Below, in pieces: positions 21,879 to 28,198 of a DNA stretch of 64,000 bases; the first letter of the stretch is position 1; each line of letters opens with the position of its first letter. The position numbers and the translations under genes were made by a program. The notes under the pieces were generated by a model. That model ran no database searches and was not told where the DNA came from. It was given only the letters and a program-made list of their open reading frames with translations. Origin of the DNA: Microbacterium testaceum (GTDB lineage: Bacteria > Actinomycetota > Actinomycetes > Actinomycetales > Microbacteriaceae); NCBI RefSeq assembly GCF_003075375.1, contig NZ_QDFT01000006.1, forward strand, positions 1-64,000, in the 5' to 3' direction.

Positions 21879-21929
21879 TCGCGTCCGGTCCCGCGCCCGG
21901 TCTCCCCCGCCGACCCCCTCCGATTAAGT

Positions 21930-21945
21930 TGCACACATGCGTGCA
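21930..21945. promoter_or_regulatory. Candidate TetR operator
   Basis: TGCACACATGCGTGCA is a near-perfect 16-bp palindrome (14 of 16 positions symmetric). It lies just upstream of the -10 box TACACT (21955-21960), in the -35 region of the TetR gene, a usual site for autoregulation. Confidence 0.65.
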
Positions 21946-21954
21946 CTTTCGGCG

Positions 21955-21960
21955 TACACT
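21955..21960 (+). promoter_or_regulatory. -10 box TACACT of the TetR-YhgE operon
   Basis: TACACT ends eight bases before GTG 21969, giving a leaderless or nearly leaderless message. Confidence 0.55.
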
Positions 21961-21968
21961 GGTCGATC

Positions 21969-22577
21969 GTGAGTACACCCGCCCGCCGCCGCGACGCCGT
22001 CGAGAACCGCGCCGGCATCCTCGACGCGGCCACCGCCGCCATCGGTCACGACCCCCGCGCCTCGATCGACACGATCGCCCGCCGCGCAGGTCTCTCGCGC
22101 CGCGCCCTCTACGGGCACTTCGACGACCGCAACGCGATCGTCCGCGAGGTCATCGCGGCCGGCGCCGCCCGCTTCAACGCGATCGCCGACGACGTCGACG
22201 ACGCCGATTCCCGCGTGGCGCTGGCTCGCCTGGCATCCGAGCTGTGGGCCGAAGCCGCGCACGTCCAGGCCGCCGCCGCCCTCGCACTCGACGACGCGCA
22301 CCTGCCCGAGACCTCGGCCGCCCTCGCCCCGCTCCGCCGTCGGATCGACGCGATCGTCCGCCGCGGCCAAGAAGAGGGGCAGCTGCGCACCGACCTTCCC
22401 GCTCCGACGCTGTCGCGCCTGCTCGAAGAGACCGGTCGCATGGTCGTGTCCCGGGTGGATGCCGAATCCTCCACCGCCCGCTCCATCGCCGTCTGCGCCG
22501 TGCTCGGCATGGCCGGCCTGTCGTGGACCGAAGCCCGTGCCCTGCTCGCCGAGCACCCCGATCTGGAGGCGCGATGA
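21969..22577 (+). CDS. TetR family transcriptional regulator
   Basis: 202-aa TetR-type repressor. The N-terminal HTH (about 25-60) reads ASIDTIARRAGLSRRALYGH followed by FDDRNAIVREV, the family's standard recognition helix. The C-terminal half is all-helical, forming a ligand-binding/dimer domain with no recognisable ligand signature. The last base pairs overlap the next gene (ATGA), and a palindrome sits in its promoter. It therefore probably controls its own operon, which encodes an ATPase-like protein and a YhgE/Pip membrane protein. Confidence 0.9.
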   Translation: MSTPARRRDAVENRAGILDAATAAIGHDPRASIDTIARRAGLSRRALYGHFDDRNAIVREVIAAGAARFNAIADDVDDADSRVALARLASELWAEAAHVQAAAALALDDAHLPETSAALAPLRRRIDAIVRRGQEEGQLRTDLPAPTLSRLLEETGRMVVSRVDAESSTARSIAVCAVLGMAGLSWTEARALLAEHPDLEAR

Positions 22578-23194
22578 GAATCGTCCTGCACGACGTCAGC
22601 AAGGGCCGGGCGCTGCCCGAGACCTCGACCGCGTACGAGACGGGGACGGCGACCCTGGTGGTCGCCGAGACCGAACAGCGCCCCACGGTGCTCGGCCTCG
22701 TGGCCTCGGGCCGCATGAAGGTCGACGGCGGGTCGGTCACCATCGACGGGCGCGCCGACCGCGGCGCGATCCGCCGACGGGTCGCCCTGGTCGACGCCCC
22801 CATCGTGTCCGAACCCGAGTCGAACGTCACGGTCACGGGCGTCGTCGCCGAAGAGCTGATGTTCGCCGGTCGCGCCCCGTCGCCGTTCGCGGCGGCGCGC
22901 TGGCTCGAGGGTCTGGGACTCGACGGTCTCGCCGGCACGGCGATCGGCGACGTCGCTCCCGCCGCGCGCATCCGTCTGCTGCTCGAGCTCGCAGCACTGC
23001 GCGCGGACGTCGAGGGGCTCGTCCTCGTCGCGCCCGACCGTCACGGCGGCGAGCCCACCGCGTGGTGGCGGATCGCGCGCGAGTTCGCCGAGCGCGGGTA
23101 CGCCGTGCTCGTGGTCGCCGGCCAGGCGTCGCACACGGCCCTCGCCACCTCTCCCGACACCGCCCTCGACACCGCCGAGGAGAACGCGCGATGA
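22574..23194 (+). CDS. Degenerate ABC-ATPase-like protein
   Basis: 206 aa with the shape of an ABC nucleotide-binding domain but without its catalytic motifs. The N-terminal antiparallel sheet is recognisable (IVLHDVSKG, then LGLVASGRMKVDGGSVTIDG, which mimics the region right after Walker A). Where GPNGAGKST should be, the sequence reads VVAETEQRP. The region expected to hold LSGGQ reads IGDVAPAARIRLLLELAALR, and Walker B is replaced by GLVLVAPDRHGGEP with no catalytic Glu. It overlaps its neighbours on both sides by 4 bp (ATGA), so it is made with TetR and YhgE. It may be a non-hydrolysing partner of the membrane protein. Confidence 0.72.
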   Translation: MRIVLHDVSKGRALPETSTAYETGTATLVVAETEQRPTVLGLVASGRMKVDGGSVTIDGRADRGAIRRRVALVDAPIVSEPESNVTVTGVVAEELMFAGRAPSPFAAARWLEGLGLDGLAGTAIGDVAPAARIRLLLELAALRADVEGLVLVAPDRHGGEPTAWWRIAREFAERGYAVLVVAGQASHTALATSPDTALDTAEENAR

Positions 23195-25128
23195 AGATCC
23201 CCCAGATGATCACGGCCGAGCTGCGCCGCCTCACGTCCACCCGCATGTCCGTGCTCGCGCTCGTGGCGCTCGTCGCCGTGCCCATCCTGTACGGCGGCCT
23301 GTACCTGTGGGCCAATCAGGACCCCTACGGAAACCTCTCGAGCGTTCCCGTGGCCCTCGTCGTCGACGATCGCGGTGCCGAGGTCAACGGCCAGCAGCGC
23401 AATCTGGGCGACGAAGCCGCCGAGCAGCTGCTCGACAGCGACACCTTCGAGTGGCACCGCGTCTCGGGCGAACAGGCCGACGCCGGCCTGCAGGCGGGCG
23501 ACTTCGACTTCGTGGTCACCCTGCCCGCCGACTTCACCGACGCCGTGGCCTCGCTCTCGAGCGCGAACCCGCGTCAGGCCGACATCGAGCTGCGCACCAA
23601 CGACGCCAACAACTACCTCGCGTCGACGATCGGTACGCAGGCGGTCGCGCGCATCCAGGCGTCGGTCGCGCAGAAGGTCGTCGACGAGGCCGGTCTGACC
23701 CTGCTCGACGCCCTGCACACGATCCGGGTGAGCCTGGTGGATGCCACGACCGGCGCCACCCAGCTCGTCGACGGCCTGGGCACGGCCAAGGACGGCTCCG
23801 CGCAGCTGGCGAGCGGGTCCACGACCCTCGCCGACGGTGCGTCGCAGCTCGCCGACGGCAACGCGCAGCTGTCGGCCGGCGCGAACCAGCTGCGGGACGG
23901 AACGGCGCAGCTGAGCGACGGCGCCGCGCGCGTGGCGGACGGCGCGCAGCAGGTCGCGGGCGGGGTCGACCGCATCGACGCCGCCGCCCGGCAGGTGGGC
24001 TCGGTCGCCGGCGACGCCGCCGCGCAGCTTCCCCAGGCGCGGGCCGACATTGCCGCGGCCCTCGCGAACGCCGGTCTCGACCAGGCCCGCATCGACGAGA
24101 TCCTGTCTCGTCTGGACCCGGTCGGCCAGCGCCTCGAGGCCGCCAACGGCCGCGTGCAGGACACGGTGAACCAGATCAATCAGCTCGACGACGGCGCCCG
24201 CCAGGTCGCCGCCGGCAGTGCCACCGTCGCCTCGGGCGCGGCGACGGCGGCCGACGGGGCCTCGGCTCTCGCCGACGGTGCCGCGACCGCGGCATCCGGA
24301 GCCTCGGCACTGCGCGATGGATCGGCGCAGCTGCGCGACGGCGCGACCCGGCTCGACGGCGGTATCGGCCAGCTCCAGAGCGGGGCGACGCAGCTGCGCG
24401 ACGGACTCGCCTCGGGTGTGGAGCAGATCCCCGACACCGACGACGCCACCCGTCAGGCGCAGGCCGACGCGATCAGCGACCCCGTGGCGGTGGGCACGAG
24501 CTCGGTGACCAAGGCGCAGAACTACGGCGCGGGTCTGGCGCCGTTCTTCGCCGCGCTGGCCGGGTGGATCGGCATCTACGCGCTGTTCCTCATCGTCAAG
24601 CCGGTGTCCAAGCGTGCGGTCACGGCGCTGCGCTCCCCCGTCCGCGTGACGCTCGCGGGGTGGCTGACCCCCGCGGGCCTCGGCGCACTGCAGATGGTGG
24701 GGCTGTTCACGGTGCTCGCCGTCGCGCTGCAGTTCTCGTTCGCGAACCCCTGGGCGGCGCTCGGCATCCTGCTGTTCGCCTCGGCGACGTACGCGGCGAT
24801 CGTGCTCGCACTGAACGTGTGGCTCGGCTCGGTGGGGCAGTTCCTGGGGCTCGTGCTCATGGTGCTGCAGTTGGTGACGGCGGGCGGTACGTTCCCGTGG
24901 CAGACGCTTCCCGCCCCGCTGGCGGCCCTGCATCACGTGCTCCCGATGGGATACGTGGTGGATGCCATGCGCCAGGTGATGTACGGCGGCGACGTCTCGC
25001 GGGTCGGTTCCGACCTGCTGGTCCTCGGCGCGTGGATGGTCGGCGGCGTGCTGGTCGCGGCGATCGGCGTGACCCGGATGACGCATCACCGGACGCTCCG
25101 CGATCTGCAGCCGAGCCTGATCGGCTGA
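23191..25128 (+). CDS. YhgE/Pip family ABC-2-type membrane protein
   Basis: 645 aa. One helix near the N-terminus (LALVALVAVPILYGGLYLWA) is followed by a large extracellular region, then five or six C-terminal helices (about 450-635). The extracellular part contains a long run of 7-11-residue repeats of the form (A/S)xxLxDGxxQL (about 190-420), predicted to form an extended coiled coil. DPYGNLSSVPVALVVDD and SSVTKAQNYGAGLAPFF are standard in YhgE/Pip and related phage-infection-protein families. Related proteins include type VII secretion EsaA and MmpL-like exporters. ATG 23191 overlaps the upstream stop by 4 bp. Function is probably export or envelope stress, but the substrate is unknown. 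Confidence 0.9.
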   Translation: MKIPQMITAELRRLTSTRMSVLALVALVAVPILYGGLYLWANQDPYGNLSSVPVALVVDDRGAEVNGQQRNLGDEAAEQLLDSDTFEWHRVSGEQADAGLQAGDFDFVVTLPADFTDAVASLSSANPRQADIELRTNDANNYLASTIGTQAVARIQASVAQKVVDEAGLTLLDALHTIRVSLVDATTGATQLVDGLGTAKDGSAQLASGSTTLADGASQLADGNAQLSAGANQLRDGTAQLSDGAARVADGAQQVAGGVDRIDAAARQVGSVAGDAAAQLPQARADIAAALANAGLDQARIDEILSRLDPVGQRLEAANGRVQDTVNQINQLDDGARQVAAGSATVASGAATAADGASALADGAATAASGASALRDGSAQLRDGATRLDGGIGQLQSGATQLRDGLASGVEQIPDTDDATRQAQADAISDPVAVGTSSVTKAQNYGAGLAPFFAALAGWIGIYALFLIVKPVSKRAVTALRSPVRVTLAGWLTPAGLGALQMVGLFTVLAVALQFSFANPWAALGILLFASATYAAIVLALNVWLGSVGQFLGLVLMVLQLVTAGGTFPWQTLPAPLAALHHVLPMGYVVDAMRQVMYGGDVSRVGSDLLVLGAWMVGGVLVAAIGVTRMTHHRTLRDLQPSLIG

Positions 25129-25207: not shown

Positions 25208-28198
25208 TCAGTTCGCGCGGCGACGGCTGCGCAGGCTCCAGGCGATCCCTCCGCCTACGAGCAGGAAGGCGCCGAGCAGACCCGCACCGAGCGCCGGCTG
25301 CGCACCGGTGGCGGCGAGCGTGCCCTTGGTCACGACCGTCAACGGCAGGCGTGCGATCACGGTCGCGTCCGCGCCCGTGACGATCACCGTGTGCGCACCG
25401 GCCGCGAAGTCGGCCGGAACGCGCACGTCGAAGTCGACGCGGCCCGCGGCGTCGGCAGCGGGGATGCCGGTGATGCGCACGGGCTCGCTGTGCAGCTCGG
25501 CGGACACCTGCTCTCCGGCCTGCAGTCCGCTGATGGTCACGCGAACGGTACCGCCGCGCTCGACCGTCGAGGCCGAGAGCGTCGCGAGCGGACGGACCGC
25601 GGGAGACGCCGTGGGAGCGGTGGTCGCCGTGGCGGTCGGGCCCGCGGTGACGGTGGGCGTGGCGGTCGCGGTCGGCGTGGACGTCGCGGTCGGGTTGGCC
25701 GTCGCCGTCTGGCTGGCCGTCGCGGTCGGGCTGGCCGTCGGCGAAGCCGTCGGGCTGCTCGTCGGCGACACCGTGGGGCTGCTCGTCGGCGACGGCGTGG
25801 TGCCCGTCACGACCACCGTCGCGGTCACGATGATCGCGGTGGTCGAGCGGGGGGTGCGGTCCGGCGCGTTGTACGCGACCGAGCCGTCACGACCGACCCA
25901 GTCGTTGTCGTTGGCGCCGATGCTGCGCACCGTTCCCGTCACGACGTACGAACCCGCCTGCGACGCGTCGACGCCCGAGGTGTCCCACTCCACCGGCAGC
26001 GACGAGACACCGCGACCGTAGGCGGTGGTGACCTCGGCCGTCTTCGGCAGTGACGACTGCACGTCGGCGCCGGTGCGAATCTCGGTCGAACCCAGGTCGG
26101 CCTTCACCGCCGCCACGGCGTCCGCCGCGCGGACGCGGTCGTAGTCGGCACGGGTGAGGTCGAGGATGCCGCCGTGCTTGGTGTGCGGAGGCATGTAGTA
26201 GTCGGGGCTCTGCAGCACCGAGAACCCGGCATCCAGATCGTTCGTGGTCATCGGCTTGTAGCCGACGGTCGGGATGACGTCGACGTAGAGGTACCACTGG
26301 TCCGCGTCGTTGCGCTTGAACCCGGCCGGTCCCTCGACGCCACCCGCGTTGCCCCCGGCCCAGGACGCACCGATGCGCTCCTGCACGCGGGTCCACGCGG
26401 TGCCGCTCTTCCACCAGGTCGCCGAGGTGGTGGCATCCATGTAGATGCCCTTGCCCTGGGCGTTGTCCTTGGTGACGCGGTAGGTCTTGCCGTCGTGCTG
26501 GATGAGCGTGGTGTCGATGGTTTCGCCGCCGTCGTCGACGAACACGCCGCCGTAGGCGTACGAGGCCTGCGTGAAGTCGGAGGTCGATCCCCACAGGATC
26601 CGGCTGTATCCGGGCTGCGCGGCACCCTGGTCGTACACCTTCGACGACCAGTACACGACGAAGGAGCCGTTGCCGTTGCCGTCGAAGTCCGGCACCCACG
26701 TGGCTTCGGGTGCCCAGGCCATGCCCAGTCGAGGCGCGGGCGGTGCCACGTCGAGCTGGCGGGGAGCGGACCACGTCACGAGGTCGTCCGACTGCCAGAC
26801 GACCAGCTTGGTGCTGCCCTGGCTCGACCAGTAGCACCACTCGACGCAGCCGTTCGCGCCGCGGTCGCCGCCGAAGACCCGCAGGTCGGTGGCGATGATG
26901 TAGTACGTGCCGGTCTCGGGGTTGCGGGTGATGTACGGGTCGCGAACGCCCGTGGTTCCCAGGGCGGATGCCAGGATCGGCTTACCGCCGTTGAGGGGGT
27001 CCCACTGCTCGGCGTCGTTGCCGCGCGAGACGTCGAGGTAGATCTTCTCGGCGTACCCCTGCGCGTCCTCGATGAAGTGGACCATGAGGTAGCCGTAGGG
27101 ATCGGTCGCTGCAGCCGCGGGCTGCACGCGCGCGGTGATCCGGCGCGTGGCCTTCACGCCCCGCACCTCCGCGGTCGCGGTCAGGGCCACGTCGCGGCTC
27201 GGCTCACCCGCGGCGGGCTGCGCGAGCGTCAGGGTGCGTCCGTCGGCGCCGATCGACGCCGACGGGTCGGTGGTCGACCACGTGACCGCACCGCCCGCAT
27301 CGGGCAGGGTCGTCACGGAATCCGTGACCGCGATCGGGTCGTCGAGCTGCGCGAGGCTCCGCTCGGCGTAGCCGGCGAGGGCGGCGGCGTGCTGCTGCGC
27401 GTCGGTGTCGCTGACCGTCGCGACCTCGGTGGCGCTGAGCGCACGGTCGTACACGCGGAAGCTCGACACGGCCCCCTTGAACAGCGGATCCGGCCACGGC
27501 GAGCGCCCGATCGTGTTCAGGCTCTGATCGGTGAGGGATGCCGGCGTGAGGGCGGTCTGCGCGGTCGCGGCGAGCGCGCCGTCGATGTAGAACGACAGCG
27601 TGTCCGTGGTCCCGTCGAGGACGGTCGTCAGGGAGTACCACCGGTCGGCGTCGAGGTTGATCGTGGATCGCGCGTTCACTTCGCCGCCACCGGATCCGGT
27701 GGTGATCGCGGAACGGGCGGAATCGCGGACGCTCGTGAAGAAGTAGGACTGGTTGCCGTCGTTGCCGATGTTCCAGAGGAAGTTGAAGGAGTCCTTCATG
27801 CTCTGGTCGATCTTGACCTCGGTCGTGATCGTCGCGGCTTCTTCTCCGACGAGGAGGTTCTGAGGCAGTCGCACCCAGTTGCCCGCGGAGCCCTTGGCCC
27901 CACCGGTGAAGGTCAGCCCACCATCGGCCCACTGGGTGTCGTTCGCGTTCTCGACCGACGCGGCGCCGAACGAGGAGCCGGTCGCCAGGTTGGACACCGA
28001 GGATCCGGTCGTCTGATCGAAGCGGTAATCGACGAGCAGGCCGTCCGTTGGGGCGGCGGCCACAGCGGCGCCGACAGGGGCGATCACGGCCGCGCCGATC
28101 ACGGCGGCGGCGAGGGTCGCGGCGAGCACGCCTCGTTTCGTCGCGGAGCGGCGTGGCCGGCGTTCGGGCGCGCCGGCACTTTCAGGGATAGGGGGCAT
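25208..28198 (-). CDS. Cell-wall-anchored LamG/GH43-like glycoside hydrolase
   Basis: 996-aa exported modular protein. Order: signal peptide (about 1-50), LamG/concanavalin-like domain (about 55-235), Ig-like domain (about 245-350), a five-bladed GH43-like catalytic domain (about 360-700), another bacterial Ig-like region, a Pro/Ser/Thr-rich spacer (about 798-865), an Ig-like segment, then LAATG (about 960), a hydrophobic helix and RSRRRAN. LAATG is the sorting signal used by class E sortases. GH43 landmarks are VRDPYITRNPETGTYYIIAT (catalytic Asp) and WAPEATWVP (candidate catalytic Glu). GH43 enzymes cleave arabinans, xylans or related plant glycans. ATG 28198 has GAGGAAG upstream. Expression is likely LacI-controlled. 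Confidence 0.88.
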   Translation of the reverse strand: MPPIPESAGAPERRPRRSATKRGVLAATLAAAVIGAAVIAPVGAAVAAAPTDGLLVDYRFDQTTGSSVSNLATGSSFGAASVENANDTQWADGGLTFTGGAKGSAGNWVRLPQNLLVGEEAATITTEVKIDQSMKDSFNFLWNIGNDGNQSYFFTSVRDSARSAITTGSGGGEVNARSTINLDADRWYSLTTVLDGTTDTLSFYIDGALAATAQTALTPASLTDQSLNTIGRSPWPDPLFKGAVSSFRVYDRALSATEVATVSDTDAQQHAAALAGYAERSLAQLDDPIAVTDSVTTLPDAGGAVTWSTTDPSASIGADGRTLTLAQPAAGEPSRDVALTATAEVRGVKATRRITARVQPAAAATDPYGYLMVHFIEDAQGYAEKIYLDVSRGNDAEQWDPLNGGKPILASALGTTGVRDPYITRNPETGTYYIIATDLRVFGGDRGANGCVEWCYWSSQGSTKLVVWQSDDLVTWSAPRQLDVAPPAPRLGMAWAPEATWVPDFDGNGNGSFVVYWSSKVYDQGAAQPGYSRILWGSTSDFTQASYAYGGVFVDDGGETIDTTLIQHDGKTYRVTKDNAQGKGIYMDATTSATWWKSGTAWTRVQERIGASWAGGNAGGVEGPAGFKRNDADQWYLYVDVIPTVGYKPMTTNDLDAGFSVLQSPDYYMPPHTKHGGILDLTRADYDRVRAADAVAAVKADLGSTEIRTGADVQSSLPKTAEVTTAYGRGVSSLPVEWDTSGVDASQAGSYVVTGTVRSIGANDNDWVGRDGSVAYNAPDRTPRSTTAIIVTATVVVTGTTPSPTSSPTVSPTSSPTASPTASPTATASQTATANPTATSTPTATATPTVTAGPTATATTAPTASPAVRPLATLSASTVERGGTVRVTISGLQAGEQVSAELHSEPVRITGIPAADAAGRVDFDVRVPADFAAGAHTVIVTGADATVIARLPLTVVTKGTLAATGAQPALGAGLLGAFLLVGGGIAWSLRSRRRAN
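25602..25805 (-). repeat. Pro/Ser/Thr-rich repeat-encoding stretch
   Basis: Imperfect short repeats encode SPT/ATP units (for example SPTSSPTVSPTSSPTASPT) as the cell-wall-spanning linker of the GH43-like protein. Such DNA can expand and contract. Confidence 0.8.

Follow-up and report, generated by a model that had tools for sequence, protein, structure and literature searches.

A TetR-controlled operon of Microbacterium testaceum appears to encode a split ABCG-like (type V) half-transporter, in which a subunit with the fold of an ATP-binding cassette (ABC) nucleotide-binding domain (NBD) would be docked on a YhgE/Pip membrane protein and would work independently of ATP; we give this reading a probability of roughly 0.55. 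The operon lies in a 64,000-nucleotide stretch of the genome (hereafter the window; contig NZ_QDFT01000006.1, positions 1 to 64,000) and is one unit of three forward-strand genes: a TetR-family regulator of 202 aa with a GTG start (21969-22577; PF00440 32.3 bits, above the cut-off of 24), a YhgE-associated protein of 206 aa that we term the pseudo-NBD on the grounds of fold, motif loss, conservation and co-occurrence (22574-23194), and a YhgE/Pip protein of 645 aa (23191-25128). Both junctions are 4-bp ATGA overlaps, and an overlap of exactly 4 bp recurs in 182/226 NBD-YhgE pairs (some places being counted under several locus identifiers). The start of the unit lies upstream of the interval 22574-25128 covered by its last two genes: TetR begins at 21969, preceded by a conserved palindrome (21926-21949).

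Fold of the 206-Residue Protein and Loss of the ATP Site

The predicted fold of the 206-residue protein is that of an ABC NBD. Scanned alone, the protein has no match in Pfam or NCBIfam at E ≤ 10, and a profile of 53 orthologues matches ABC ATPases in the PDB weakly (best E 0.0019). Single-sequence scans do not reach the ABC layout, so that profile and fold are needed. An AlphaFold model built from the 53-orthologue alignment is confident (predicted local distance difference test, pLDDT, 93.4; predicted template-modelling score, pTM, 0.89). Foldseek searches with this model rank ABC NBDs first (best E 1.1e-10), and VIA-align places it on LptB with Z 17.6 and a root-mean-square deviation (rmsd) of 3.3 Å over 195 aligned residues, with Z of at least 8 for 986/997 chains aligned. 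Pfam scans of the 53 orthologues taken singly returned chance-like matches, which we rejected (Resolvase in 8/53, best E 0.02; HDPD in 2/53, best E 0.08).

The residues of an ordinary ATP site are replaced throughout. The window protein lacks the Walker A pattern GxxGxGK[ST], with P37 in the Lys column; V152 and A153 stand at the positions of the Walker B Asp and the catalytic Glu, and neither the LSGGQ signature nor the H-loop His is present. Among 61 aligned genus-level orthologues, most have AETEQRPTVLGL as their Walker A stretch, the Lys position holds Pro in 60 and Ala in 1, and residue 153 is Ser, Ala, Thr or His. The Walker A Lys and the catalytic Glu occur in none of the 61. An earlier note on this DNA, made from the letters alone, had described an ABC ATPase layout with replaced motifs in a tight operon with TetR and a YhgE/Pip-type protein carrying long repeats. 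The Foldseek and LptB matches and the motif columns agree with that description, the two ATGA overlaps and the family models (below) confirm its account of the neighbours, the predicted fold is not one unrelated to ABC, and close relatives do not keep intact motifs.

Motif loss extends beyond the genus. From 280 loci with a YhgE gene we collected 233 genes of 170-330 aa that precede it on the same strand by ≤200 bp; 226 are NBD-like by profile, and the remaining 7 read as TetR. The 226 comprise 190 distinct sequences, which together with 2 MmpL-fused NBD domains were aligned as a set of 192 with 8 canonical ABC domains. The set is mostly Microbacterium and its family, with some genomes present twice, and its counts are not independent. 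The Walker A Lys is kept in 3/187 readable rows (5 of the 192 being gapped), with R at this position in 16 and H in 6. SGG of the signature and the catalytic Glu are each found in 0/192 and the Walker B Asp in 19/192. The H-loop His occupies the aligned column in 1/192; three further loci (L157, L158 and L161) have a His near that column, and some outgroups may keep it. We infer that the pseudo-NBD has lost nucleotide binding.

A Rebuilt and Conserved Pocket

Within the protein, conservation is highest in the former nucleotide pocket, a finding that the earlier note had not anticipated. Against a mean entropy of 1.25 bits over residues 1-196 in the 53 orthologues, the rebuilt P-loop and the helix after it (residues 31-48, AETEQRPTVLGLVASGRM; 22664-22717, with Pro at the Walker A Lys) have 0.38 bits, the rebuilt Q-loop (residues 70-81, VALVDAPIVSEP; 22781-22816, with Ala in the canonical Gln column) 0.63 bits, residues 90-99 past the Q-loop 0.47 bits and residues 148-161 of the Walker B/D-loop region 0.55 bits. 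The most conserved segments are ETEQRPTVLGL in the P-loop, DAPxVSxP in the Q-loop region and PDRHGG (residues 154-159; 23033-23050), which by column correspondence directly follows the Walker B Asp-Glu positions and runs through the D-loop. The alignment contains 21 invariant columns. Across the genus, E32, R36, L40, G46 and R47, D74 and A75 of the Q-loop, and P154, D155, R156 and H157 are present in 61/61 orthologues. The former signature region, by comparison, is unconserved (1.46 bits). Conserved pocket loops beside an unconserved signature argue against an ordinary ATP sandwich and against simple decay; on these alignments the pocket is rebuilt and then fixed, such that "dead" does not mean "unused".

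Such conservation is open to another interpretation, one that we consider rather unlikely: the pseudo-NBD may still bind a phosphate ligand, nucleotide or other, in a non-canonical mode that involves R36, R47 and R156, serving as a ligand-sensing switch of YhgE and not as a scaffold. The conservation of the pocket loops, the invariant charges (E32, R36, R47, D74, D155, R156 and H157) and the R or H at the Lys position of some outgroups would all suit a switch of this kind. However, the glycine-rich anion loop is gone, P37 replaces the Lys, and the conserved charges may be structural only.

The signature region bears on a further alternative, in which the pseudo-NBD heterodimerizes with an intact NBD encoded elsewhere and YhgE is driven by ATP through one live and one dead half. 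Degenerate partners of live NBDs are known, as in ABCG5/G8, and the ABC fold is kept throughout. We regard this arrangement as improbable, however, since the region that would complete the partner's ATP site is precisely the one that is unconserved, and the pseudo-NBD is the sole NBD gene of the operon (no search in trans was made).

Substitution patterns indicate that the gene is maintained. Ratios of nonsynonymous to synonymous substitution (dN/dS) range from 0.16 to 0.28 when the window gene is set against relatives (11 comparisons) and from 0.09 to 0.16 between more closely related sequences (9 pairs), by which measure the pseudo-NBD is under purifying selection. A functionless relic retained through translational coupling to YhgE might be expected from the 4-bp overlap, as deletion could disturb YhgE translation, and loci with two tandem YhgE genes manage without a pseudo-NBD (below). 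With these ratios, the invariant columns and open reading frames (ORFs) that are intact even at two loci with split-looking matches, a relic is very unlikely. Frameshifts had been suspected from split matches in G155 and G241 and were ruled out, both having intact ORFs (294 and 230 aa) with insertions. Matches with one internal TGA occur in G102, G279 and G460, and we took these codons as natural gene ends (ORFs of 195 aa in G279 and 199 aa in G460; an open stretch of 191 codons in G102, L037).

The order in which the motifs disappeared can be read in part from a maximum-likelihood tree of 67 rows, computed with motif columns excluded; 8 rows are canonical and 59 are YhgE-associated, the latter thinned at 62% identity. 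YhgE-associated and canonical NBDs are split across one branch (support 100/97). The window protein falls in a clade of 48 rows (100/99), none of which has the Lys, and a 38-row clade nested within this one (99/99) has Pro at that position in 36 rows. The distribution of Lys requires a minimum of 2 changes on the tree, which does not distinguish gain of Lys from loss. Rows with K comprise the two domains fused to MmpL (L183 and L184) and L215, which belongs to another class within the phylum; all of them already lack LSGGQ and the catalytic Glu, and we therefore place the loss of the Lys later. Large-genome relatives in the same class carry GPSGSGRT or similar (K to R), and order-level outgroups read EPGHGHT, GDPGPAATT or GDRQDQRT. 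The signature and catalytic Glu thus appear to have been lost first and the Walker A Lys later.

In the two fused cases (L183, 2-1480; L184, 3570-5057), an apparent MmpL C-terminus is joined to an NBD with GPSGSGKT intact and LSGGQ missing, adjoining a YhgE gene. Such loci possibly unite YhgE, a degenerate NBD and an RND transporter driven by proton-motive force in a single system.

The YhgE/Pip Partner

The membrane protein belongs to the YhgE/Pip family and has a predicted ABCG-type membrane domain, the latter also unanticipated. It scores 175.1 bits with TIGR03061 (cut-off 96.15) and 188.8 bits with TIGR03062 (cut-off 102.2), and contains 8 stretches of TIGR03057, the model of the xxxLxxG heptad. 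A structural model from a 36-sequence alignment has pLDDT 80.5. With the hairpin left out, VIA-align places its membrane part on ABCG5/G8 (7r89_A) with Z 21.9 and rmsd 3.3 Å over 235 aligned residues, consistent with the type V membrane-domain fold, and the best 50 matches are all ABCG, ABCH or fungal PDR-type exporters except NosDFY. A YhgE profile searched against solved structures gave mostly coiled coils among the best 60 of 161 matches and was uninformative on the membrane domain. The EsaA model TIGR03929 reaches 65 bits, short of its cut-off of 122.

With a membrane domain of ABCG type, the two proteins together have the look of an ABC half-transporter split in two, and in the models the operon resembles an ABCG half-transporter with a dead motor. 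The N-terminal NBD fusion of ABCG proteins is not found here, where NBD and YhgE are two overlapping genes. In ABCG fusions the NBD precedes the membrane domain; the NBD gene precedes the membrane gene in the operon, and we count this order in favor of a split half-transporter.

Two regions of YhgE stand out. Between transmembrane helices TM1 and TM2 lies a heptad-repeat helical hairpin (residues 172-411; 23704-24423), recognized by TIGR03057 and modelled as helices 172-293, 298-306 and 309-411. The predicted cytosolic TM2-TM3 loop (residues 469-483; 24595-24639) contains R475, which has entropy 0 in 55 non-redundant NBD-partnered YhgEs. Coupling helices of ABCG proteins sit at the cytosolic TM2-TM3 loop, and by ABCG topology this segment would occupy the same position. 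A second YhgE in the same genome (L319, C16; 694 aa) follows a 971-aa gene that we take for MmpL by likeness to similar loci.

Co-occurrence of Pseudo-NBD and YhgE

Pseudo-NBD and its YhgE subfamily occur in the same genomes. Strong pseudo-NBD matches (E 1.2e-35 or better) are present in 98/149 genus genomes, and 3 more have weak matches only (1.4e-4 to 9.6e-4). The matching YhgE subfamily, defined by at least 159 bits with the N-terminal model (a line set after a gap was seen between 159.3 and 148.4), is found in the same 98/149 genomes, supporting the co-selection with a membrane protein that the earlier note had proposed. Excluded from this count are G059, with a YhgE above the line, and a second such YhgE in each of G011, G140 and G116, all four lying beside a second pseudo-NBD family. 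That family forms a second pair with YhgE in four genus genomes (L076-L079), with Walker A stretches such as GAGGRGRQ or GQGGRGRT and an upstream gene resembling an amidohydrolase. Weaker YhgE relatives occur in 147/149 genus genomes, and YhgE as such is thus wider than the pair.

At pseudo-NBD loci the association with YhgE is complete: a YhgE match is found at 61/61 genus, 50/50 family-level and 23/23 order-level loci (a few loci being shared between sets). A TetR similar to that of the window operon is found at 56/61, 41/50 and 10/23, respectively. These numbers bear on the idea that the pseudo-NBD acts apart from YhgE, for example as a TetR co-regulator, and is merely co-expressed with it. 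The overlap between the TetR and pseudo-NBD genes would fit that idea, which we nonetheless consider hardly credible, because at the 23 order-level loci (~1.5-kb flanks) YhgE is constant and only 10 have a TetR similar to the operon's (E ≤ 1e-3), though some of the other 13 have a different TetR-like gene nearby.

The pseudo-NBD also occurs across the family and the order. Matches at E ≤ 1e-6 occur in 116/249 family genomes (113 without three at 1e-7), representing 46/85 genera, and matches are found in 43/198 genomes of the order (36 without seven weak ones). The closest named relatives of the window protein are in M. testaceum, M. enclense and other Microbacterium strains (78-84% identity), and within its own genome no match other than itself is better than E 0.028. 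A pseudo-NBD gene, at 64% identity, also stands on a contig (L275) that bears the label Stenotrophomonas maltophilia P13, probably through contamination or a mislabelled record.

Regulation of the Operon

A palindrome over the promoter, AAGTTGCAC-ACATGC-GTGCACTTT (21926-21949), is a putative TetR operator. Its core, TGCAC-N6-GTGCA, is present in 16/16 rows (the window and 15 close relatives; 18 loci were tried). TGCA-N8-TGCA lies upstream of 177/197 related TetR genes, places that overlap and are not independent, compared with 27/1565 random 150-bp windows from the same loci. TTGCACN6GTGCA occurs once in the genome; a control pattern also occurs once, so this is no more than chance, and the single operator core argues only against a wide regulon. 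Downstream, a -10-like hexamer, TACACT (21955-21960, forward strand), is read from the sequence 8 nt before the GTG start, and the same or a similar hexamer appears in the aligned promoter rows of close relatives. Given this spacing, a leaderless transcript of the TetR operon is probable.

Any inducing signal may be lipophilic or related to the envelope. In Saccharopolyspora hirsuta, a YhgE/Pip gene (F1721_04135) and an MMPL transporter gene (F1721_04140) are listed in a table of PMC9782250 as raised by cholesterol (3.82 and 3.33, respectively), a weak hint, by analogy, of such a signal.

Proposed Mechanism and Points Against It

Under the split half-transporter reading, YhgE would provide a membrane domain that bears a long helical hairpin on the extracellular side; the 206-residue protein would provide an NBD-fold subunit without any residue needed for an ordinary ATPase. 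In the likeliest arrangement, the conserved rebuilt Q-loop and post-Q region of this subunit hold it to the cytosolic TM2-TM3 loop of YhgE, and the subunit acts as an ATP-independent assembly, gating or sensing part. The strong conservation of the altered ATP site suggests that a former motor now serves a structural or sensing purpose. The rebuilt pocket (ETEQRPT, PDRHGG) could bind a different ligand or hold the fold through salt bridges. TetR would bind the palindrome over the promoter and repress the operon until a signal, perhaps envelope-related or lipophilic, is received. Both the substrate and the energy source of the YhgE pair are matters of inference.

A more far-reaching version, which we offer as tentative, is that a lineage of ABCG-type exporters in Actinomycetota gave up ATP, with signature and catalytic Glu lost first and Lys later. 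The pocket would then have been rebuilt as a conserved non-nucleotide site that gates YhgE, itself a passive envelope-spanning channel or one powered otherwise, for example by an MmpL partner.

Several observations count against the split half-transporter reading. The YhgE model has a pTM of only 0.50, and Foldseek sees its likeness to ABCG weakly, with 5 matches at E ≤ 0.001 and a best match, to an insect ABCH transporter, of E 2.9e-4 and template-modelling score 0.27. R475 is not specific to NBD-partnered YhgEs, R being likewise the most frequent residue in the other groups that have data; in that comparison one tandem group has no aligned letters in the loop, the other groups are few and closely related, and the YhgEs classed as standing alone probably include some whose NBD gene was missed. 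Outgroups with R, H or Q at the Lys position could still bind nucleotide weakly. No pseudo-NBD match of any kind is found in 48/149 genus genomes. Finally, 9/23 loci, 22 of the 23 having been chosen for tandem YhgEs, show an uninterrupted series of ArgG, TetR and two tandem YhgEs, and YhgE therefore need not have an NBD subunit.

These tandem loci nonetheless appear to share the regulatory switch of the window operon. The tandem YhgEs at the argG-TetR site (L301-L303, L305, L307, L309, L310, L083 and L090) are 928-1011 and 726-734 aa long, and the TetR of the nine loci is 62-67% identical to that of the window. Among the loci listed, the palindrome precedes TetR in 11/11 tandem loci in which TetR comes first, compared with 0/7 in which TetR stands at the other end (49-53% identity to the window's). 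The same switch thus seems to drive either a pseudo-NBD and a YhgE or two YhgEs, which suggests that the two arrangements do equivalent jobs and that YhgE is able to work without an NBD. We count a palindrome common to the tandem-YhgE module in favor of the split half-transporter.

Comparison with Known Systems

The pair shares most with ABCG, or type V, exporters (ABCG5/G8, ABCG2 and insect ABCH) in the fold of the membrane domain, the NBD fold and the coding of the NBD before the membrane domain. One of the two ATP sites of ABCG5/G8 is degenerate. Unlike these exporters, the operon encodes NBD and membrane domain as separate genes, its NBD lacks the catalytic motifs, and a helical hairpin of ~240 residues is inserted between TM1 and TM2. 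The degenerate NBDs of heterodimeric ABC exporters have likewise lost catalytic residues and kept the fold; they partner a live NBD, with which one ATP site is completed, whereas the operon has a single NBD, which is dead and has an unconserved signature region.

Family membership links the window YhgE to the phage infection proteins of Lactococcus and Enterococcus, with both family models above cut-off and heptad repeats. The Enterococcus relative is speculated, in two passages of PMC4999554, to transport a small molecule or work with type VIIb secretion; those passages mention no NBD partner, unlike the case here. EsaA of type VIIb secretion, for which PMC6891578 gives six predicted TM helices and an extracellular segment, has a related N-terminal domain, though the window YhgE falls below the EsaA cut-off.

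Adjoining the operon on its 3′ side is a convergent gene (25208-28129, reverse strand) for a large secreted-looking protein of 973 or 998 aa, depending on the start. Its product has a linker rich in Ser, Thr and Pro and what looks like a membrane anchor at the C-terminus, and resembles a surface glycosidase.

Significance

A word search of the literature, with partial coverage and most subscription journals missing, found no description of a YhgE-NBD pair or of such a pseudo-NBD, and a dedicated family of apparently dead NBDs tied to an ABCG-type membrane protein across several families of the class was not found described. The pseudo-ABC interpretation of the earlier note is strengthened by the NBD fold, the conserved replacements and the dN/dS of 0.09-0.28; the adaptor role that it suggested is plausible only. 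ABC transporters are defined by their use of ATP. If the split half-transporter reading is true, a dedicated NBD family that has no ATP site and is found in several families of the class would plainly exemplify an ABC motor put to new use as a non-catalytic subunit, with the former P-loop as its most constrained part. The YhgE/Pip family, which includes phage receptors and relatives of EsaA, would gain an ABCG-type structural class and a partner, and with these the transport function of this poorly understood family would become testable.

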